Assembly: GCA_937125475.1 (NCBI GenBank)
Contig: CAKZLL010000042.1
Span: 1 to 34,107, forward strand
Source of the DNA: an uncultured Saprospiraceae bacterium
Lineage (GTDB): Bacteria; Bacteroidota; Bacteroidia; Chitinophagales; Saprospiraceae
Reading direction: 5' to 3'
Length of the DNA stretch: 34,107 nt
Numbering within the stretch: the first letter of the stretch is position 1; every line of letters starts with the position of its first letter. This document shows positions 22,406 through 32,767 of the stretch, piece after piece. The translations under genes and the position numbers were made by a program. The notes beneath the pieces were generated by a model. That model searched no databases. It was not told where the DNA came from and worked only from the letters and a program-made list of their open reading frames with translations.

Positions 22406-22599
22406 AATTTTGAAATAAAATAAATGAGCTATTTATCTTTTACAAATCATTAAACTCAACACATTATAAATCAAATTTCATTTTTAATAATATAATAGTG
22501 TTACAACTTTAAAGTAGAAAAAAAATAATTTTTTCATTTTATTATTGCGAATTTAAAAAATATAACATACATTTGTTAGTATAATTGAAACAGTAAGTA
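22406..22599 (+). promoter_or_regulatory. Region upstream of the arginine leader, with promoter at 22545-22575
   Basis: About 140 nt of AT-rich DNA precede a strong Bacteroidota promoter: TTG (22545-22547), a 20-nt spacer and TACATTTG (22568-22575), which matches TAnnTTTG exactly. Transcription should begin near 22580, leaving a 5' end of roughly 20 nt before the leader ATG at 22600. No repressor palindrome is obvious around the promoter. Confidence 0.75.
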
Positions 22600-22698
22600 A
22601 TGAAACAATCTTTCAACATACATTCTTTAACAACTTTTATTGTGACTCCTCGTCGCAATACTACTGCTGTTTTCCCACGTCGCTTTAGGCGTGTATAA
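22600..22698 (+). CDS. Arginine-rich leader peptide (putative attenuator peptide of the arginine cluster)
   Basis: A 32-codon frame, too short for usual gene calls, starts ATG 22600 and ends TAA 22698. It begins MKQSFNIHSLTTFIVT and continues PRRNTTAVFPRRFRRV. Arginine takes 6 of the 14 positions from 18 to 31, as three Arg-Arg pairs with codons CGT CGC, CGT CGC and AGG CGT; AGG is uncommon in the window. It lies 25 nt after a good promoter and 172 nt before proC, the first gene of the arginine cluster. A hairpin cacgtc (22676-22681)/ggcgtg (22688-22693) covers the distal arginine codons. By analogy with the his, trp and ilv leaders, ribosome stalling at Arg codons when charged arginine tRNA is scarce would alter folding of the downstream leader. 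The reading frame is seen; the mechanism is inferred. Confidence 0.75.
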   Translation: MKQSFNIHSLTTFIVTPRRNTTAVFPRRFRRV

Positions 22699-22768
22699 TT
22701 ATATTTTTCCGAGCAACGGGCATTTCGTCCCCTATTTGATTTCAATATCAATTTATTCAACTTTTGGC

Positions 22769-22804
22769 AATCAGTAATACTTACTGGTTACAGCTTATTT
22801 TTTT
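22769..22804 (+). promoter_or_regulatory. Alternative hairpin in the arginine leader followed by a delayed U-tract
   Basis: aatcagtaa (22769-22777) pairs with ttactggtt (22781-22789), nine pairs including one G-U, around the loop tac. A run of seven T residues (22798-22804) follows after 8 nt, which is too far for a classic terminator. The descending arm tacttactg (22778-22786) is also the exact complement of cagtaagta (22591-22599), just before the leader ATG, so competing folds are possible. Confidence 0.45.
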
Positions 22805-22832
22805 AATCATTTTTCAAAATAAAAGAAAAATG

Positions 22833-22857
22833 AAAAGGTACTTCTATACCTTTTTTT
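22833..22857 (+). terminator. Candidate attenuator terminator just upstream of proC
   Basis: aaaaggta (22833-22840) pairs exactly with tacctttt (22847-22854) around the loop cttcta, followed by further T residues (seven T in a row, 22851-22857). The stem has only two G-C pairs, so it is weak alone. It lies after the leader peptide and 13 nt before the proC ATG, the position expected of a regulated terminator; it could alternatively hide the translation start region. Confidence 0.55.
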
Positions 22858-22870
22858 ATAAAATCAACTC

Positions 22871-23668
22871 ATGAATATATTAATCATCGGCGGTGGAAAT
22901 ATGGGATTAACTTTTGCCAAATCGTTTATCAATTCTCACGTCGTTACACCTGAACAACTGATTATTCTTGAAAAATCACAAGAAAGAGCCGCTCATCTCA
23001 AAACACTAAAAATTGCAAGGGTTTTTGATGATCCTATCTGTGTAAAAGCTGCGGCTCTAATCGTTTTGGCGGTCAAGCCACAAAATGCAAAAGATCTTTT
23101 TGAAGAGATGACAAAGTATGTTGATAATGATCAAGTTGTGCTAAGTATTATGGCAGGCGTTAAGATTGAAACGATCAAAAAACATCTAAAACTTGGGAAA
23201 GTTATCCGTGCAATGCCTAACCTTCCAGCTCAAATTGGTTTAGGAATGACTGGTTTTACTGCAACAGATGCCGTTTCAAGATTTGAACTTGGAGCTATCC
23301 AAAATCTACTTTCCACCACAGGAAAAACCCTTCATGTGGATAATGAAGAAGCCATCGACAAAATCACTGCTATTTCTGGTTCTGGTCCTGCTTATATGTT
23401 TTATTTCTTAGATGCAATGATTACTGCTGCCAAAGAAATGGGCTTTAATAAAGGTGAAGCAGAACTTTTAGTTGTACAAACTTTCAAAGGTGCACTCCAA
23501 CTTTTCCAACAAAATAGCTTCACTTGCCAAGATTGGATTAATAAAGTGGCTTCAAAAGGCGGAACAACCGAAGCCGCAATTCAAGCTTTTAATAATAAAG
23601 CAGTTCGACAACATATTGTTGATGGAGCAAATACAGCATGGAAACGCGCAGTAGAATTAGGAAATTAA
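22871..23668 (+). CDS. proC: Pyrroline-5-carboxylate reductase
   Basis: A 265-residue enzyme that reduces pyrroline-5-carboxylate to proline with NAD(P)H. It has the Rossmann GGGNMGLTFAKSF at residues 6-18, the LAVKPQNAKDL strand, MAGVKIETI, RAMPNLPAQIG, the catalytic/signature SGSGPAYMFYFLDAM and KVASKGGTTEAAI at the C-terminus. It is the first gene of the arginine cluster and, if the leader model is right, would be under arginine control, linking proline and arginine/ornithine metabolism, which share glutamate-derived intermediates. A 78-nt gap with a strong hairpin separates it from the acetyltransferase gene. Confidence 0.95.
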   Translation: MNILIIGGGNMGLTFAKSFINSHVVTPEQLIILEKSQERAAHLKTLKIARVFDDPICVKAAALIVLAVKPQNAKDLFEEMTKYVDNDQVVLSIMAGVKIETIKKHLKLGKVIRAMPNLPAQIGLGMTGFTATDAVSRFELGAIQNLLSTTGKTLHVDNEEAIDKITAISGSGPAYMFYFLDAMITAAKEMGFNKGEAELLVVQTFKGALQLFQQNSFTCQDWINKVASKGGTTEAAIQAFNNKAVRQHIVDGANTAWKRAVELGN

Positions 23669-23687: not shown

Positions 23688-23715
23688 GTAGGGCAAAGAC
23701 ATGCCTTTGCCCTAC
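23688..23715. repeat. Perfect 11-bp hairpin between proC and the GNAT gene
   Basis: gtagggcaaag (23688-23698) and ctttgccctac (23705-23715) pair perfectly around acatgc. The composition is more G/C-rich than its surroundings and no U-tract follows, so it is not an intrinsic terminator. It may be an intergenic palindromic repeat or an mRNA processing or stability element within the operon. Confidence 0.75.
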
Positions 23716-23746: not shown

Positions 23747-24325
23747 ATGGAAATCAGAATTGAAATAGGTAATAAAAACCATGAAAAATATGCGCAAGCC
23801 GTCTGTGATATGATAGACGATGCAGCTAAAAAACGAGGAACAGGAATCGCAAAACGCAAGACGGAATATATTGCAGAAAAACTGATAGATGGGAAAGCTA
23901 TAATTGCACTTCGAGGCGAAGAAGTAGCTGGTTTTAGTTATATAGAATCTTGGGAACATGGAAAATATGTAGCTAATTCAGGATTAATTGTTTCGCCTAA
24001 TTTTCGCAAAATGGGCCTAGCTAAACGCATCAAAGAAAATGTGTTTAAGCTATCTAGAGATAAATACCCTAGCGCCAAAATATTTGGTATTACAACGAGT
24101 TTAGCGGTTTTGAAAATAAATTCAGAGTTGGGATATAAGCCTGTTACTTTTTCTGAATTGCCACAAGAAGAGGCTTTTTGGAAAGGTTGTTCGACGTGTC
24201 CAAATTTTGATATTCTGACCCGAACAAATCGAAAAATGTGCCTTTGTACTGGCATGTTAGCGCCTTCTAAAATTGAGGTAGAGATGAAATTAAATTTAAC
24301 AAAATTAATCATTAACAATAAATAA
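23747..24325 (+). CDS. GNAT-family acetyltransferase, probable N-acylglutamate synthase of the pathway
   Basis: A 192-residue GNAT-fold protein. The acetyl-CoA-binding region is around SGLIVSPNFRKMGLAKRIKE (residues 78-97), a variant of the R/Q-x-x-G-x-G/A loop, followed by IFGITTS and the helix VLKINSELGYK. The C-terminal region holds four cysteines arranged Cys148-x2-Cys151-x13-Cys165-x-Cys167, which could bind a metal. The window has no argA or argJ, so this gene, 6 nt ahead of argG inside the cluster, is the best candidate for acylating glutamate in the first step. Whether it uses acetyl- or succinyl-CoA is unknown. I start it at ATG 23747 because a TTG at 23717 lies in the preceding hairpin region. 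Confidence 0.8.
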   Translation: MEIRIEIGNKNHEKYAQAVCDMIDDAAKKRGTGIAKRKTEYIAEKLIDGKAIIALRGEEVAGFSYIESWEHGKYVANSGLIVSPNFRKMGLAKRIKENVFKLSRDKYPSAKIFGITTSLAVLKINSELGYKPVTFSELPQEEAFWKGCSTCPNFDILTRTNRKMCLCTGMLAPSKIEVEMKLNLTKLIINNK

Positions 24326-24331
24326 GTAACT

Positions 24332-25531
24332 ATGAAAAACAATGAAAAGGAAAAAGTAGTGTTAGCCTATAGCGGCGGTTTGGATACCTCATTTTGTATC
24401 AAACATTTAACGCTTGATCGAGGTTTGGAAGTTCATGCAGTCATGGTCGATACAGGCGGTTTTTCGGAAGAAGAAGTAATTGTTGCTAAAGAAAAAGCTT
24501 TCAATCTAGGAGCAGTGTCTTTTGAAAAGATTGATGCAGTAGAGGATTATTATGATAAATGTATCAAATACTTAGTATTTGGAAATGTATTAAGAAATAA
24601 CACTTATCCACTTTCTGTAAGTGCGGAACGCATTGTTCAGGCGGTTGGTGTAGTTGAATATGCGAATAAAGTAGGGGCAAAATACGTTGCTCATGGTAGT
24701 ACAGGCGCAGGAAATGATCAAGTTCGTTTTGATTTGATGATCCAAATTCTTGGAAAAAACTTAGAAATTATTACGCCAATTAGGGATTTACAATTGTCTC
24801 GTCAAGCGGAAATTGAATATTTGAAAAAACATGGTGTTCATCTAAGTTGGGAAAAAGCGCAATATTCAGTTAATAAAGGAATTTGGGGAACAAGCGTTGG
24901 TGGTGCGGAAACATTAACTTCCGATCAAGCTTTGCCTTCAAGTGCTTATCCAACACAATTATCAAAAGAAACGCCAGAAAAAGTAACGCTTCATTTTCAA
25001 AAAGGAGAATTTGTAGGTATCAATGACAAGACTTTCGATCATCCTACACAAGCAATTGCTGCACTTCAAAACCTTGCAGGCGCATTTGCCATTGGTCGAG
25101 ATATTCATGTAGGCGATACGATTATAGGTATAAAAGGTCGAGTCGGTTTTGAGGCTGCCGCGCCTTTGGTCATCATCAAAGCCCATCATTTATTAGAAAA
25201 ACACACTTTAACAAAGTGGCAACAATATTGGAAAGAACAGCTCGCAAATTGGTTTGGAATGCTATTGCATGAAGGGCAATATCTAGATCCTGTGATGCGA
25301 AATATCGAAACTTTCTTAACCGATACACAAGAAAATGTTACTGGAAAAGTCTTTGTTCAATTACATCCTTATCGTTTTGAATTATTAGGAATTGAATCGG
25401 CTCACGATTTAAAAAATCCTGATTATGGCGATTATGGTGAGATGAATAAAGGTTGGTCTGCCGAAGAAGCTAAAGGATTTATTAAACTAATTGGTCAGCA
25501 AAGTAAGATTCATAGATTAGTGAATGCTTAG
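24332..25531 (+). CDS. argG: Argininosuccinate synthase
   Basis: A 399-residue enzyme that condenses citrulline and aspartate using ATP, giving argininosuccinate. It has the N-type ATP pyrophosphatase P-loop LAYSGGLDTSFCIKHL at residues 11-26, the YPLSVSAERIVQA and VAHGSTGAGNDQVRFDL segments that bind citrulline and ATP/aspartate, and KGIWGTSVGGAETL. It begins 6 nt after the acetyltransferase gene. The gap to argC (90 nt) contains GTGTCAGG-type repeat DNA. Confidence 0.96.
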   Translation: MKNNEKEKVVLAYSGGLDTSFCIKHLTLDRGLEVHAVMVDTGGFSEEEVIVAKEKAFNLGAVSFEKIDAVEDYYDKCIKYLVFGNVLRNNTYPLSVSAERIVQAVGVVEYANKVGAKYVAHGSTGAGNDQVRFDLMIQILGKNLEIITPIRDLQLSRQAEIEYLKKHGVHLSWEKAQYSVNKGIWGTSVGGAETLTSDQALPSSAYPTQLSKETPEKVTLHFQKGEFVGINDKTFDHPTQAIAALQNLAGAFAIGRDIHVGDTIIGIKGRVGFEAAAPLVIIKAHHLLEKHTLTKWQQYWKEQLANWFGMLLHEGQYLDPVMRNIETFLTDTQENVTGKVFVQLHPYRFELLGIESAHDLKNPDYGDYGEMNKGWSAEEAKGFIKLIGQQSKIHRLVNA

Positions 25532-25565: not shown

Positions 25566-25621
25566 AAATTTAAATGCCTAGCACCTTGTTTTTAATAAGA
25601 AATTATACAATTAATAAAATA

Positions 25622-26587
25622 ATGATAAAGGTTGGAATTATAGGTGGTGCAGGCTATACGGCAGGCGAATTGATACGAATTTTGTTGTATCATCCAAAAG
25701 TGGAAATCGGTTTTATTCATAGCACAAGTAATGCAGGAAATTCGATTAGCGATGTTCATACTGATTTAGTCGGCGAAACAAATATCGTGTTTACCAATAT
25801 CTTGCAAGATGATGTAAATGTGATTTTCTTATGTATGGGACATGGAAAATCTAAGGTGTTTTTAGAAAAAAATACGATTGCTAGTTCGATCAAAATCATA
25901 GATTTAAGTCGCGATTTTCGATTAAAAGCGGATAGCCATAATTATGTTTATGGTTTGCCTGAATTGAATAAAAGCGCGATTCAAGCGTCTAATTATATTG
26001 CTAATTGTGGCTGTTTTGCCACGGCTATTCAATTAGCATTATTGCCTTTGGCGAAAGCACAAAAATTGACAAATGCCGTTCATGTTCATGCAATAACTGG
26101 CTCTACAGGCGCAGGTCAAAAACCAGGTCGAACGACACATTTTAGCTGGAGAAATAATAATGTTTCGATTTATAAAGCATTCACACATCAGCATTTAGGC
26201 GAGATCAAACAGAGTTTGCAGCAGTTACAACCGAGTTTTGATAAAGCCATTCATTTCTTGCCTGTACGTGGTAATTTTTCGAGAGGAATTTACGCAAGTG
26301 CTTATTTAACAAGTGATTTGACTGCCGAAGAAGCCACTGAATTATATCAAGATTTTTATAAAAATGAGCCATTTGTGGTCATTACTTCTAAAGATCCGCA
26401 TTTGAAACAAGTTGTTAATACCAACAAAGCGGTGCTTCATATCAAAAAGCAAGATGATCAATTATTAATCATTTCTATGATTGACAATTTGATAAAAGGC
26501 GCGTCGGGTCAAGCCGTTCAGAATATGAACTTAATATTTGGATTGGAGGAAACATTGGGATTGAATCTGAAAGCAACATATTTTTAA
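25622..26587 (+). CDS. argC: N-acyl-gamma-glutamyl-phosphate reductase
   Basis: A 321-residue NADPH enzyme that reduces N-acylglutamyl phosphate to the semialdehyde. The N-terminal Rossmann motif is GIIGGAGYTAGELIRIL, the active-site cysteine lies in NYIANCGCFATAIQLALLPL (the Cys-Phe-Ala-Thr form of the family's CYPT motif), and PVRGNFSRGIYASAY fits the conserved substrate loop. I start at ATG 25622, which gives MIKVGIIGGAGYT; an upstream in-frame ATG at 25574 adds 16 residues lying on repeat-derived sequence. It follows argG in the same direction and acts on the ArgB product. Confidence 0.94.
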   Translation: MIKVGIIGGAGYTAGELIRILLYHPKVEIGFIHSTSNAGNSISDVHTDLVGETNIVFTNILQDDVNVIFLCMGHGKSKVFLEKNTIASSIKIIDLSRDFRLKADSHNYVYGLPELNKSAIQASNYIANCGCFATAIQLALLPLAKAQKLTNAVHVHAITGSTGAGQKPGRTTHFSWRNNNVSIYKAFTHQHLGEIKQSLQQLQPSFDKAIHFLPVRGNFSRGIYASAYLTSDLTAEEATELYQDFYKNEPFVVITSKDPHLKQVVNTNKAVLHIKKQDDQLLIISMIDNLIKGASGQAVQNMNLIFGLEETLGLNLKATYF

Positions 26588-26699: not shown

Positions 26700-27839
26700 A
26701 TGAAAAATAATCTATTTGACGTATATCCTTTATTTGAAATCGAGCCTGTAAAAGGGAAAGGATGTCATGTTTATGATAAAAACGGACAGAAATATTTAGA
26801 CCTATATGGTGGTCATGCCGTTATTTCCGTTGGGCATAGTCATCCGTATTATGTTGAGAAAATTAGCCATCAATTACAGCAGTTAGGATTTTATTCCAAT
26901 TCTGTTCAAAATAGTTTGCAAGTAGAACTCGCGGAAAAGTTAGTCGAACTTTCGGGCTGTACTGATTATCAATTATTCTTATGTAATTCAGGTGCAGAAG
27001 CTAATGAAAATGCTTTGAAATTAGCCTCTTTCACAACAGGAAAAACAAAGGTCATTTCTTTTAAAAAAGGCTTTCATGGAAGGACTTCCGCTGCGGTCAA
27101 CGTGACAGACATTGATAAAATAAAAGCACCAATCAATAAGACTTTTGAAGCAGAAATCCACGAATGGAACAATTTTAATACAGTTAAAGCCAGTCTAGAA
27201 AAAGGTGATGTTTGTGCAGTTATTATTGAAGGTATTCAAGGAATTGGCGGTATTCATGTGCCGAATCGCGCTTTTTTGCAAGCTGTCGCACAATTGTGTC
27301 AAACCCATGAAGCTATTTTAATTTTAGATGAAGTGCAATCAGGGTATGCGCGAAGGGGTCATTTTTTTGGGTATCAATTCACTGATATTCAACCAGATAT
27401 CATTTCTATGGCAAAAGGAATGGGGAATGGTTTTCCAATAGGTGGAATTTTAATACATCCAAAACATAAAGCAAAATACGGGATTTTAGGATCTACGTTT
27501 GGTGGTAATCATTTAGCATGTGCGGCAGGCATTGCGGTTTTGGATATTATTAAAAATGAAAATCTACTGGAACATGCTACGGAATTAGGCGAATATTTCA
27601 TGAACGAACTCGGCGCTATTCCGCAAGTAAAAGAAGTTCGTGGAAGAGGCTTGATGATCGGTATTGATATGGGAAAATCAATCAAAGCATTGCGCAGTAA
27701 ATTATTATATGAAGACCATATTTTTACGGGTTCTTCTTCTGATCCTAATACGATCCGTATGCTTCCGCCATTGAATGTGACCAAGCAAGAAATTGATTAT
27801 TTTTTAGATAAATTTAAAGCAGCTATTCTTGATTTTTAA
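26700..27839 (+). CDS. argD: N-acylornithine aminotransferase
   Basis: A 379-residue class III PLP-dependent aminotransferase that converts N-acylglutamate semialdehyde to N-acylornithine with glutamate as donor. It shows DLYGGHAVISVGHSHP, the NSGAEANENALKLA PLP-phosphate segment, GFHGRTSAAV, the Asp-bearing LILDEVQSGYARRG and the Schiff-base lysine in ISMAKGMGNGFPIGG. The C-terminal RMLPPLNVT helps bind the substrate carboxylate. argF' begins 19 nt after its stop, so the four genes from argD to argE are tightly coupled. Confidence 0.95.
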   Translation: MKNNLFDVYPLFEIEPVKGKGCHVYDKNGQKYLDLYGGHAVISVGHSHPYYVEKISHQLQQLGFYSNSVQNSLQVELAEKLVELSGCTDYQLFLCNSGAEANENALKLASFTTGKTKVISFKKGFHGRTSAAVNVTDIDKIKAPINKTFEAEIHEWNNFNTVKASLEKGDVCAVIIEGIQGIGGIHVPNRAFLQAVAQLCQTHEAILILDEVQSGYARRGHFFGYQFTDIQPDIISMAKGMGNGFPIGGILIHPKHKAKYGILGSTFGGNHLACAAGIAVLDIIKNENLLEHATELGEYFMNELGAIPQVKEVRGRGLMIGIDMGKSIKALRSKLLYEDHIFTGSSSDPNTIRMLPPLNVTKQEIDYFLDKFKAAILDF

Positions 27840-27858: not shown

Positions 27859-28800
27859 ATGAAACAGTTTGTTAGTGTAAATGATGTTAAAAATGTGACG
27901 CAATTAGTCCAAGATGCGCTTGATTCTAAAGCTAATCCCTTCGGGGAAAAGAAAATTGGACAAAACAAAACGCTGGGTTTGCTCTTTTTTAATCCGAGTT
28001 TACGCACTCGATTAAGCACTCAAAAAGCAGCTAAAAATCTGGGAATGTCTGTGATGTCAATGGATTTAAATACGCATGGTTGGCGATTAGAATTTGAAGA
28101 TGGCGCAATCATGAACAGCGATAAAGCGGAACACATCAAAGAAGGCGCGGCAGTAATTAGTCAGTATTGTGATATAATTGGCGTGCGAACTTTTCCAAGT
28201 CTAACCGATCAAGAAAAAGATTATCAAGAAACGATTTTAAGTCAATTTATAAAACACGCCTCCGTTCCAGTGATTAGTTTGGAATCGGCTACGCGTCACC
28301 CGTTGCAATCATTGACTGATTTAATTACTATTAAAGAACATCAAAAAACAAACCGCCCTAAAATTGTGCTTTCTTGGGCACCGCACCCGAAAGCCTTGCC
28401 TCAAGCTGTCGCCAATTCTTTTTCAGAATGGATGATTGCCGCTGATATGGATTTGACGATTACCCACCCAAAAGGCTATGAATTATCACCCGATTTTATC
28501 AAAAATACGCCTATCGAATACGATCAAAAAAAGGCTTTTGAAGGAGCAGATTTCATTTATACCAAAAATTGGTCTTCCTTCAATGACTATGGAAAAATCA
28601 TTCAACCCAAATCAAATTGGATGATTACCGCTGAAAAAATGGCTTGGACACATGAAGCTTATTTCATGCATTGCTTGCCTGTCCGTAGAAATGTGGTCGT
28701 TGCTGATGAAGTACTTGATAGCGAAAAATCGTTAACTATCAAGCAAGCGAATAATCGAACATATGCCGCGCAAGCCGTTTTGAAAAATATTTTAAAATAA
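27859..28800 (+). CDS. argF': N-acylornithine carbamoyltransferase (ArgF'), Ala at the acyl-specificity position
   Basis: A 313-residue transcarbamylase that acts on N-acylornithine rather than ornithine, as in Bacteroides fragilis and Xanthomonas. It aligns well with the B. fragilis N-succinylornithine enzyme: carbamoyl-phosphate loop FFNPSLRTRLSTQKAAKNLG, the tryptophan region HGWRLE, ESATRHPLQSLTDLITI, WAPHPKALPQAVANSF and FMHCLPVRRN. The B. fragilis enzyme has Pro90 and the N-acetyl-specific X. campestris enzyme has Glu at the matching site; here the residue is Ala90 (codon GCG, 28126-28128, in NSDKAEHIKEG). The pathway's acyl group therefore cannot be assigned by that rule. argB starts 5 nt after the stop. 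Confidence 0.92.
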   Translation: MKQFVSVNDVKNVTQLVQDALDSKANPFGEKKIGQNKTLGLLFFNPSLRTRLSTQKAAKNLGMSVMSMDLNTHGWRLEFEDGAIMNSDKAEHIKEGAAVISQYCDIIGVRTFPSLTDQEKDYQETILSQFIKHASVPVISLESATRHPLQSLTDLITIKEHQKTNRPKIVLSWAPHPKALPQAVANSFSEWMIAADMDLTITHPKGYELSPDFIKNTPIEYDQKKAFEGADFIYTKNWSSFNDYGKIIQPKSNWMITAEKMAWTHEAYFMHCLPVRRNVVVADEVLDSEKSLTIKQANNRTYAAQAVLKNILK

Positions 28801-28805
28801 GCGTT

Positions 28806-29582
28806 ATGAAGCAACTAAACATTATAAAAATAGGCGGAAATATTATCAATAATCCAGCCGTATTAACGGAAGTTTTGACCGACTTTTCGAATATGGAAGG
28901 ATTGAAAATATTGGTACACGGCGGAGGTAGAAAAGCCAGTCAAGTGCTCAAAAGCATGGGCATCGAACCCAAAATGATCAACGGTAGACGCGTAACAGAT
29001 GAAACAACACTCGAAGTCGTAACGATGGTTTATGCAGGTTTGATTAATAAAAATGTCGTGGCACAATTGCAGGCTTTGGATTGTATGTCGATTGGGATGA
29101 CTGGCGCAGATTTGAACAGCATTCAATCGCATAAACGAATAGTGAAAGACATTGATTATGGTTTTGCTGGCGATATTGACAAAGTAAATGGAAAGGCTAT
29201 TTCCGCTTTACTTAGTGCTAATTTTACGCCTGTTTTTTGTTCTATTACACATAATAAAAACGGCTTACTACTCAATACAAACGCTGATACGATTGCTTCG
29301 ACTTTGGCAGTTGCATTGTCTGATTTTTATAAAGTGTCCTTAAAATTTTGTTTTGAAAAGGATGGTGTTTTGTTGGATGTGACGGATGATAGCTCTGTGA
29401 TTGTTGAATTAGACAAGGCAAAATATGCCACTTATAAAAATGAAAATAAGATATTCGATGGCATGCTTCCGAAAATTGATAATGCTTTTGATGCACTGAA
29501 TGCTGGCGTGCAAGAAGTATTTATTTGTAGTACGAATGCTTTGAAAGCCGATTATTTTAAAGGAACAGCTCTAGTACATTAA
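28806..29582 (+). CDS. argB: N-acylglutamate kinase
   Basis: A 258-residue amino acid kinase that phosphorylates the gamma-carboxyl of N-acylglutamate. Motifs: IKIGGNIINN (phosphate-binding Lys-Ile-Gly-Gly), LVHGGGRKASQVLKSMGIEP, NGRRVTDETTLEVVTMV, GMTGADLNSI and the C-terminal DGMLPKIDNAFDALNAGVQEVFI. It lacks the N-terminal helix of arginine-inhibited hexameric kinases, which suggests a dimer that is not feedback-inhibited by arginine; transcription or leader control would then matter more. It lies 5 nt after argF' and 2 nt before argE. Confidence 0.94.
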   Translation: MKQLNIIKIGGNIINNPAVLTEVLTDFSNMEGLKILVHGGGRKASQVLKSMGIEPKMINGRRVTDETTLEVVTMVYAGLINKNVVAQLQALDCMSIGMTGADLNSIQSHKRIVKDIDYGFAGDIDKVNGKAISALLSANFTPVFCSITHNKNGLLLNTNADTIASTLAVALSDFYKVSLKFCFEKDGVLLDVTDDSSVIVELDKAKYATYKNENKIFDGMLPKIDNAFDALNAGVQEVFICSTNALKADYFKGTALVH

Positions 29583-29584
29583 TT

Positions 29585-30634
29585 ATGAATAAGTATATAA
29601 CATTACTACAAAATCTAATTTCTACGCCATCTTTTTCAAGAAAAGAAGCCGAAACAGCCGAATTAATCAATAATTTCTTCAAAAACGAAGATATTCCGAC
29701 TAATCGAAAATGGAATAACATTTGGGCAAAATCTAAATATTGGGCGGAAAACAAGCCGACTATTTTGCTCAATTCTCATCACGATACCGTCAAACCTGCT
29801 AAAGGTTATACGCGAAATCCGTTTGAACCAACGATTGAAAAAGGCATTTTGTATGGCTTAGGAAGTAATGACGCTGGCGGTTCGCTGGTCGCATTGATAG
29901 CGGTTTTTGTACATTTTTATAATAGAAAGAATTTGCCTTTTAATTTGATTATTGCAGCGACAGCGGAAGAGGAAATTTCAGGTAAAAATGGAATTGCAAG
30001 TATTTTAGGCGATTTAGGACAATTGGATTTGGGCATTATTGGCGAACCTACTCAAATGCGCATGGCAATTGCGGAAAAAGGTTTGATGGTTATTGATGGC
30101 TATGCCAAAGGAAAATCTGGACACGCTGCGCGAGAAGAAGGTATTAATGCCCTTTATATCGCGATGGAAGATATTCAGCGAATCAAAAATTATGAATTGG
30201 ATTTGGTCTCTAATTTATTAGGAAAAACTAAAATGTCTGTGACGCAAGTGACGGCTGGTACGCAACATAATGTCGTTCCTGATAATTGTCATTTCGTGAT
30301 TGATGTCCGAACAAATGAGCATTATAGTAATGAAGCCGTTTTTGAAATTTTACAAAAAAACACTGATTCTGAGCTAAAAGCGCGTTCTTTTCGCCTCAAT
30401 TCTTCAGGAATTTCGTTAGATCATCCGATTGTAAAAAAGGGTTTGAAAATGGCATTGCCTTATTATGGTTCTCCAACTTTGTCGGATCAAGCCTTAATTA
30501 ATGGTATTCCGACGATCAAAATCGGTTGTGGAAAATCCGAGCGTTCTCATACGGCTGATGAATTTATTTACATTTCAGAAATAGAAAAAGGCATTGAGAT
30601 TTATATTGATTTATTAGAAGGATTATTTTTATAA
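29585..30634 (+). CDS. argE: N-acylornithine/N-acylcitrulline deacylase (M20 metallopeptidase family)
   Basis: A 349-residue zinc deacylase. It shows the M20 metal and catalytic residues: LLNSHHDTVKPAKGY (His-x-Asp), LGSNDAGGSLVALIAV (metal-bridging Asp), ATAEEEISGKNG (catalytic Glu-Glu), GEPTQMRMAIAEKG and RSHTADEFIYIS (C-terminal metal His). With a transcarbamylase that works on N-acylornithine, its true substrate is most likely N-acylcitrulline, releasing citrulline for ArgG. Its start lies 2 nt after argB. Confidence 0.92.
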   Translation: MNKYITLLQNLISTPSFSRKEAETAELINNFFKNEDIPTNRKWNNIWAKSKYWAENKPTILLNSHHDTVKPAKGYTRNPFEPTIEKGILYGLGSNDAGGSLVALIAVFVHFYNRKNLPFNLIIAATAEEEISGKNGIASILGDLGQLDLGIIGEPTQMRMAIAEKGLMVIDGYAKGKSGHAAREEGINALYIAMEDIQRIKNYELDLVSNLLGKTKMSVTQVTAGTQHNVVPDNCHFVIDVRTNEHYSNEAVFEILQKNTDSELKARSFRLNSSGISLDHPIVKKGLKMALPYYGSPTLSDQALINGIPTIKIGCGKSERSHTADEFIYISEIEKGIEIYIDLLEGLFL

Positions 30635-31435: not shown

Positions 31436-32767
31436 ATGAAATTGTGGCAGAAGGATTTTCAGATAGAAAAAACGATTGAAAACTTTACAGTTGGACAAGA
31501 TAGAGCATTAGATTTATGGCTCGCCAAATATGATATTCAAGGTTCATTAGCTCATATTAAAATGCTGGAAAGTATTGGGTTATTGACGAAAGAAGAATTG
31601 ATTGCTTTGGAAAAAACGTTGAAAATTATTTATCAAACGGCTAAAAATAAGACGTTTATCATTGAGGAAGGTATGGAAGATGTGCATTCTCAAGTGGAAT
31701 ATATGCTCACCAAAACATTGGGTGATATTGGTAAAAAAATTCATAGTGGACGTTCTCGAAATGATCAAGTCTTAGTTGATTTGCGTTTGTTTATTCGAGC
31801 TGAAATTAGAGAAATTACTAGTTTGACCAAAGCTTTATTTGATACATTAATTCAATTGAGTGAAACGCACAAGGACAAACTAATGCCTGGTTATACGCAT
31901 ACTCAAATTGCGATGGTTTCCTCTTTTGGATTGTGGTTTGGTGCATATGCGGAGAGTTTGGTGGACGATTTGACGCTTTTGCAGTCCGTTTATAAGATTA
32001 ATAATCAAAATCCGTTAGGTTCTGCGGCTGGTTTCGGTAGTTCTTTTCCTTTGAATAGGACTTTAACAACGGAACTTTTGGGTTTTGATAATTTGAATTA
32101 TAATGTCATTCATGCACAATTAGGACGTGGCAAAACAGAGCGTTTTTTGAGTTATGCAATGGCTTCTGTCGCTTCTACTTTGGGAAAATTAGCGGCTGAT
32201 GTATGTTTGTATATTAATCAAAATTTCGGTTTTATTGCTTTTCCGAATGAATTGACAACAGGATCGAGCATTATGCCACACAAGAAAAATCCTGATGTTT
32301 TCGAACTTATTCGAGCGCGTTGTAATCAATTACAGGCTTTACCAAATGAAATTTCTTTATTAACCACCAACTTAATTTCGGGTTATCATCGCGATTTTCA
32401 ATTAACGAAAGAAACACTTTTTCCAGCTATTGAAAATTTGAAATCGTGTTTGAAAATTACAGATTTCGCACTTAAAAATATCATTATCAAAACCGATATT
32501 TTGAATGATGATAAATATAATTATTTGTATAGTGTGGAAGAAGTCAATCGTTTGGTTCTGAGCGGTATTCCGTTTCGAGATGCTTACAAAATAGTGGGAG
32601 AAGCGATTGAAAAAGGCGATTTTAACCCAGAAACGGCCGTTAATCATACGCATGAAGGCAGTTTAGGTAATTTGTGCAATGACGAAATTAATGCTAAAAT
32701 GGAAAAGGTTTGGCAGGGTTTTAATTTTGAAAAAGTAGATAAAATAATCGAAGAATTATTAGCTTAA
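31436..32767 (+). CDS. argH: Argininosuccinate lyase
   Basis: A 443-residue enzyme of the fumarase/aspartase superfamily that splits argininosuccinate into arginine and fumarate, the last step of the pathway. It shows the substrate-binding MEDVHSQVEYMLTK, HSGRSRNDQVLVDLRLFIR, MPGYTHTQIAM, NPLGSAAGFGSSFPLNR and the superfamily signature with catalytic Ser in GSSIMPHKKNPDVFELIR. The length is normal. It is the last gene of the cluster and ends before a strong bidirectional terminator. Confidence 0.96.
   Translation: MKLWQKDFQIEKTIENFTVGQDRALDLWLAKYDIQGSLAHIKMLESIGLLTKEELIALEKTLKIIYQTAKNKTFIIEEGMEDVHSQVEYMLTKTLGDIGKKIHSGRSRNDQVLVDLRLFIRAEIREITSLTKALFDTLIQLSETHKDKLMPGYTHTQIAMVSSFGLWFGAYAESLVDDLTLLQSVYKINNQNPLGSAAGFGSSFPLNRTLTTELLGFDNLNYNVIHAQLGRGKTERFLSYAMASVASTLGKLAADVCLYINQNFGFIAFPNELTTGSSIMPHKKNPDVFELIRARCNQLQALPNEISLLTTNLISGYHRDFQLTKETLFPAIENLKSCLKITDFALKNIIIKTDILNDDKYNYLYSVEEVNRLVLSGIPFRDAYKIVGEAIEKGDFNPETAVNHTHEGSLGNLCNDEINAKMEKVWQGFNFEKVDKIIEELLA

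Follow-up and report, generated by a model that had tools for sequence, protein, structure and literature searches.

The window considered here, a stretch of 34,107 nucleotides from an uncultured Saprospiraceae bacterium, contains a series of genes on the forward strand that begins with proC (22871-23668; TIGR00112) and continues with a GNAT acetyltransferase gene (23747-24325; PF00583), argG (24332-25531; TIGR00032), argC (25574-26587; TIGR01850), an argD-type transaminase gene (26700-27839), the N-acetylornithine carbamoyltransferase gene argF' (27859-28800; NF003384), argB (28806-29582; TIGR00761), a gene for an argE/dapE-type deacylase (29585-30634) and argH (31436-32767; TIGR00838). The profile matches lie above their cut-offs except for the argD-type and argE/dapE-type genes, whose best matches, to TIGR00707 and TIGR01910 respectively, fall below. 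These matches bear out the claim of a preliminary description of this DNA that the operon makes arginine. By inference, the GNAT protein is probably an N-acetylglutamate synthase. In relatives its gene is the first one behind the leader described below, the place taken by proC in the lineage of the window. A 28-bp palindrome, GTAGGGCAAAGACATGCCTTTGCCCTAC, is found between proC and the GNAT gene at 23688-23715. It is very stable as RNA (-22 kcal/mol) and belongs to a family of about 57 copies dispersed over this genome; this repeat could affect the cotranscription of proC with the arg genes.

The intergenic region upstream of proC, which has a G+C content of 26%, contains a frame for an Arg-rich leader peptide of 32 codons followed by TAA (22600-22698, forward strand). 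Its translation, MKQSFNIHSLTTFIVTPRRNTTAVFPRRFRRV, has Arg at codons 18, 19, 27, 28, 30 and 31. The three Arg-Arg pairs, CGT CGC at 22651-22656, CGT CGC at 22678-22683 and AGG CGT at 22687-22692, stand exactly at the codons that had been claimed for them, and a frame of this kind is unlikely to arise by chance. When the 647-nt intergenic region was shuffled 5,000 times with its dinucleotides preserved, only 7 shuffles produced an ATG-initiated frame of 15-60 codons holding six or more Arg, and none had six Arg packed within 14 codons. A Bacteroidota -7 box (TAnnTTTG), TACATTTG, is present on the same strand at 22568-22575, 24 nt from the leader start. The TTG at 22544-22546, 21 nt before this box, may be the -33 element that goes with it, an inference from the known pattern of Bacteroidota promoters for which the evidence is weak. 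The -7 box is shared with relatives: in 36 of 45 leader loci of the family it ends a median of 8 nt 5' of the leader start, so that the 5' end of the message would there nearly coincide with the start codon. A scan of the window for E. coli-type promoters found no excess (9 sites against 10.2 expected). The good promoter that had been proposed is consequently upheld by the Bacteroidota -7 box but not by the E. coli-type scan.

Several hairpins are predicted on the forward strand in and behind the leader. Hairpin A (CACGTC/GGCGTG; 22676-22693) is formed over the last Arg codons, and codons 18-19 fall outside it. It is followed by two weak candidates of 4 bp each, which are mutually exclusive: hairpin B (TCCG..CGGG; 22708-22720), identified by eye against the nearest relative, L032, and alignment A1, and hairpin C (GGGC..GTCC; 22718-22730), identified from folds as the counterpart of a covarying hairpin of the relatives. 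Farther along, folding predicts a hairpin AATCAGTAA-TAC-TTACTGGTT (22769-22789) with a T-rich run a few nucleotides later, and a hairpin TCATTTTTC/GAAAAATGA (22807-22833) directly 5' of a terminator-like hairpin with a run of seven T (22833-22857). In the last of these, AAAAGGTA-CTTCTA-TACCTTTT occupies 22833-22854 and the T7 tract 22851-22857; its energy when folded alone is -7.6 kcal/mol, the fold of 22800-22868 is more stable than those of 199 of 200 shuffles, and 13 nt separate its end from proC. As a separate observation, AAACAGTAAGTA (22588-22599), before the leader start, is complementary at 11 of 12 positions to TACTTACTGGTT (22778-22789); the latter is the right arm of the local hairpin at 22769-22789 and could pair instead with 22588-22599. 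Searches against Rfam, both strict and permissive, gave no match; at the gathering score neither the window nor 14 related loci matched any Rfam family, the T-box included.

The hairpin with a U-tract that had been described just before the first gene is thus present at 22833-22857, but it is not conserved in relatives. A loose scan for U-tract terminators gave candidates in 35 of 87 related loci, many of them expected by chance and without a common position, and the most stable hairpins of the relatives seldom bear a T-run. No conserved U-tract terminator was found, the candidates standing at unrelated places.

Leaders of the same kind are found upstream of GNAT-argG in many related genomes. 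Under a strict rule that requires an ATG frame of 10-60 codons with at least four Arg in 12 codons, within 400 nt, an Arg leader was recognized in 45 of 65 loci of the same family (Saprospiraceae). The controls gave 41 of 1,300 shuffles (3%), 5 of 28 regions upstream of proC and 16 of 65 loci searched on the opposite strand. The opposite-strand value is appreciable and probably stems from adjacent genes and CG-rich hairpin sequence, which makes the shuffles and the remaining amino acids the cleaner comparison; Ser, the next after Arg, passed the rule in 10 of 65 loci, a number that none of the others exceeded. That relatives might lack a conserved Arg-rich frame at this position had been named beforehand as a finding that would refute the attenuator, and the interpretation survived that test. 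About one third of the family loci fail the strict rule, some having a GTG start or a long gap and others apparently having no leader. Examples of the leaders upstream of the relatives' GNAT-argG are MTTTTTYQLFTSLAASLRRRNRRRRP, MTKAFFTYYPIINIRRRRRVSRRRP and MNASYSTYYPSISTMSPRRNSAVVVRRRRLGRIL, each ending at a stop codon. Comparable leaders stand 5' of GNAT-argG in several other Bacteroidota families, and leaders are present in Aquimarina, Maribacter, Croceivirga, Flagellimonas, Pricia, Poritiphilus, Sinomicrobium and Mucilaginibacter as well as in Saprospiraceae assemblies. The same-family locus L045 and the Saprospiraceae record L197 have identical leaders, from which it is inferred that the family of the window is most likely Saprospiraceae.

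No Arg leader of the window kind was recognized upstream of the relatives' proC genes, because proC lies outside the arg operon in those genomes. For the same reason proC was rejected as the anchor for the leaders of relatives, GNAT-argG being the correct one. proC in the window lineage has come to sit between the leader and the GNAT gene, the leader remaining at the head of the operon. It heads the operon whether the first gene is proC, as in the window, or GNAT, as in the relatives.

The suggestion that the rare codons AGG and CGC sharpen the response was not sustained. CGT and CGC make up 218 of the 262 Arg codons in the family's leaders, compared with 176 of 356 in the argG genes of these genomes, and the single AGG is not conserved. 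A different choice is made in Flavobacterium, where the leader type is MNKISLHITSLSRTNSPVTSPEVRILSL followed by a stop codon. In 30 loci (L062-L076, L176-L182 and others) two CGG codons are invariant and enclose a small hairpin, and CGG accounts for 60 of 69 Arg codons in the Flavobacterium leaders versus none of 233 in Flavobacterium argG. This could represent tuning to the scarcest tRNA, or it could be an RNA motif in which the CGG reading is incidental.

In all 16 of 16 aligned sequences of the relatives the last Arg codon and the Pro codon pair with bases behind the stop codon, CGCCC-(stop)-GGGCG, to form hairpin A, and hairpin A of the window is inferred to be its counterpart, by eye, through the nearest relative L032. 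Three segments follow 3' of hairpin A, the middle one of which can pair to the left (hairpin B) or to the right (hairpin C). A covariance model, R1, built from hairpins A and C of the 16 relatives finds the module in about 40 family loci, and the resulting alignment holds 45 distinct sequences. In hairpin C all six pairs have changed on both sides, with 34 double-change cells versus 7.7 in shuffles, and 96.8% of the cells are paired versus 37-62% when the pairing is slid by 1-3 columns. The 45-sequence alignment leans towards its own model; the first alignment, made with MAFFT and without structure, gives the same covariation trend for hairpin C. Hairpin B is less regular, with 82% of cells paired in the larger set, and has weaker support than C. 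When R1 was run against 61 whole genomes, its matches were mostly arg leaders, and the nearest relative L032, whose ArgG is 83% identical, matched at 3e-5. In the window R1 found no match up to E = 1, the candidate hairpins B and C included. The relatives thus have hairpins that overlap the regulatory codons and exclude one another, but the counterparts of these in the window are weak and are missed by the model. As to the check on hairpin covariation that had been proposed, covariation is strong in hairpin C of the relatives, and the U-tract hairpin of the window is not conserved. The leader, the clustering of its Arg codons, its place at the operon head and the promoter box, and in the relatives the invariant hairpin A and the competing hairpins B and C, are all shown by comparison of sequences.

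Other elements were observed in these 5' regions. An ACATAT motif lies about 15-18 nt behind the leader start in L055, L037, L058, the Flavobacterium loci and others, and it recurs before hairpin B in many Saprospiraceae loci; the window has a diverged version at about 22618-22625. In family f25 (L077, L078, L081, L084, L085, L089, L132 and L157) the leader stop is followed by a hairpin whose loop, AGGTGAGTCC, is fixed while its stem varies. AGGTGA is complementary to the tail of 16S rRNA, although these bacteria hardly use Shine-Dalgarno sites. In family f21 (L137, L145, L158, L160 and L161) the UGA stop codon of the leader is base-paired in a long hairpin, and the stem differs between species (TGATAGG/CCTATCA, TGATATTCC/GGAATATCA).

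Control by a repressor is the textbook picture for arginine operons. However, no match to ArgR (PF02863) was found in the window's own genome or in 60 relatives (0 of 61), while 8 of 14 control genomes were positive. The window's genome is 92% complete, and the absence of ArgR from it alone is thus not proof. In a sample of the phylum, ArgR was present in 138 of 395 genomes. Five of these, which belong to the same class as the window (L252-L256), have argR directly 5' of GNAT-argG, and no leader of the window kind was found before argR-GNAT-argG in these five. Because argR occurs there without the leader, and the leader elsewhere without ArgR, repressor and leader seem to stand in for one another at the head of this operon. 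ArgR/AhrC likewise controls arginine operons, but it is a protein and is absent from the 61 genomes. The same genome also has a His-rich leader, ending in PTHHHHIYHPHHIH and a stop codon, about 240 nt 5' of hisG (L171, G000:C110). It shares host, logic and position with the Arg leader and differs in its amino acid, histidine, and its presence suggests that ribosome-mediated attenuation is at home in this organism.

Based on the current evidence, the best explanation, and one in which considerable confidence seems justified, is a ribosome-mediated attenuator that senses charged tRNA-Arg. The conserved leaders, the absence of ArgR and the His-rich leader of hisG support this core reading of the preliminary description. 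Against it stand the lack of a conserved U-tract terminator, the failure of R1 to match the window, whose hairpins B and C have only 4 bp each, and the third or so of family loci that fall outside the strict leader rule. Translation and stalling, the hairpin that corresponds to the off state and the off-step itself are inferred, as is any response to arginine. Transcription would begin near 22580, as inferred from the -7 box, and a ribosome would initiate at 22600, translating the leader while RNA polymerase is still extending the RNA in front of it. With ample arginine, the ribosome is predicted to pass the Arg codons, reach the stop codon and cover hairpin A, upon which the downstream RNA would adopt a form that stops expression of proC and the arg genes. 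When arginine is scarce, the ribosome would instead stall at the Arg codons of 22651-22692 and leave the 3' half of hairpin A free. Hairpin A would not form, the pairing behind it would shift, and RNA polymerase or the message could proceed, such that the operon is expressed. The putative off-step is the U-tract hairpin at 22833-22857 in the window genome, and possibly a Rho-dependent or other stop in the relatives.

This last step is where the most serious alternative departs from the attenuator. As in Salmonella speF, translation of the leader may control Rho-dependent termination or mRNA decay without an intrinsic terminator, with stalled or completed translation exposing or hiding a C-rich, G-poor stretch behind the hairpins. 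The Arg-codon sensor is common to both explanations, which differ in the off-step, and the confidence placed in one overlaps with that placed in the other; as a distinct explanation, control of the speF type remains possible but somewhat doubtful. It would account for the lack of a conserved U-tract in the relatives, and the ratio of C to G behind the hairpins, 1.43 in the family and 5.8 in f25 versus 1.16 upstream of proC, would suit Rho. That comparison rests on a single, thin control set, however, G-poor 5' regions are common in Bacteroidota, and the window does possess the T7 hairpin before proC. The precedent is Salmonella orf34/speFL, a leader of 34 codons that likewise has two consecutive Arg codons and in which arginine starvation alters the folding of the mRNA (PMC6386406). 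It controls ornithine decarboxylase through Rho, RNase G and unfolding of the ribosome-binding site, but it is gammaproteobacterial and unrelated in sequence (PMC6386406). Nor does the leader of the window stand before an ornithine decarboxylase gene, the genes behind it being proC and arg.

Two further explanations seem improbable. In the first, the Arg-rich peptide, often ending in RRP and a stop codon, would bind arginine or ornithine in the ribosomal tunnel and stall at the stop codon like TnaC and SpeFL. Many leaders do terminate in Arg-Pro-stop, as does TnaC, but the peptide drifts in sequence outside the Arg cluster, leaders in other families end in VFIPRV, YMPRV, LGRIL and the like, and the terminal CGC-CC is accounted for by the invariant RNA hairpin A. 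The second, which we consider no better placed, is an element of RNA only, protein-binding or riboswitch-like, in which the Arg codons merely result from CG-rich pairing. The near invariance of hairpin A in the alignment and the fixed pair of CGG triplets with its intervening hairpin in Flavobacterium are consistent with such an element. In contrast, the Arg clusters reach well 5' of hairpin A in frame (RRRxxRRRP), vary in codon and are present in families with quite different RNA; moreover, Arg codons 18-19 of the window lie outside the hairpin, and Rfam holds no match. That the frame arose by chance, in a 5' region either unregulated or under ArgR/AhrC control, is scarcely credible, as ArgR is absent, the frame is rare in shuffles, the leader is conserved and no point was found in its favour.

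The attenuator preferred here resembles hisL of the enterobacteria and the trp, ilv, leu, thr and phe attenuators in opening the operon with a short frame rich in end-product codons and, in the relatives, in having competing hairpins that overlap those codons. Unlike them, it would sense arginine, its U-tract terminator is not conserved, and its leader is nearly leaderless in Bacteroidota. Other devices that respond to arginine are more distant. The rbfL leader of S. aureus likewise senses arginine shortage through Arg codons, but it has 8 codons with rare AGA/AGG, and it acts translationally, blocking the ribosome-binding site of a biofilm regulator (PMC13009471). The Arg T-box of Firmicutes also senses the charging of tRNA-Arg at the RNA level for arginine genes (PMC1262725), but there the RNA binds the tRNA directly without a leader peptide, and the window has no T-box match. 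Arginine is listed as T-box-controlled in bacteria other than Actinobacteria, for which no conserved RNA element was seen before the arginine operons (PMC1262725). Within the phylum, a structured 5' region of hisG has been reported in flavobacteria, and leader-peptide attenuation of amino-acid operons in Flavobacterium psychrophilum, with hisG and pheA among the conserved structured 5' regions; arginine operons are not named in the main text of that paper (PMC9723704). No earlier leader attenuator of an arginine operon was found in the open literature, a search that did not extend to closed papers, to the supplement on flavobacterial leaders of PMC9723704 or to Lopatovskaya et al. (2010). Within the open papers, the statement that no Arg-codon leader has been described for the arginine cluster of Bacteroidota consequently stands. 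The Arg-codon leaders that are known, those of Salmonella speF and S. aureus rbfL, do not serve arginine synthesis.

Overall, leader-peptide attenuation appears to serve in place of ArgR in a large part of the phylum from which the repressor is missing. Only tentatively, and in the awareness that it may well prove wrong, can this be extended to an ancient and undescribed arginine attenuator of Bacteroidota that replaces ArgR at the head of GNAT-argG, stops expression in a Rho-dependent or other manner without a conserved U-tract terminator and has been tuned to the almost unused CGG in the Flavobacterium branch. If true, the finding would pose the problem of how an attenuator without a conserved U-tract brings transcription to an end. 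It would then also allow theories on how attenuators choose their codons to be tested cleanly, given the six Arg codons, the several tRNAs and the use of CGU/CGC versus the CGG of Flavobacterium, and it would answer how these bacteria control the synthesis of arginine.
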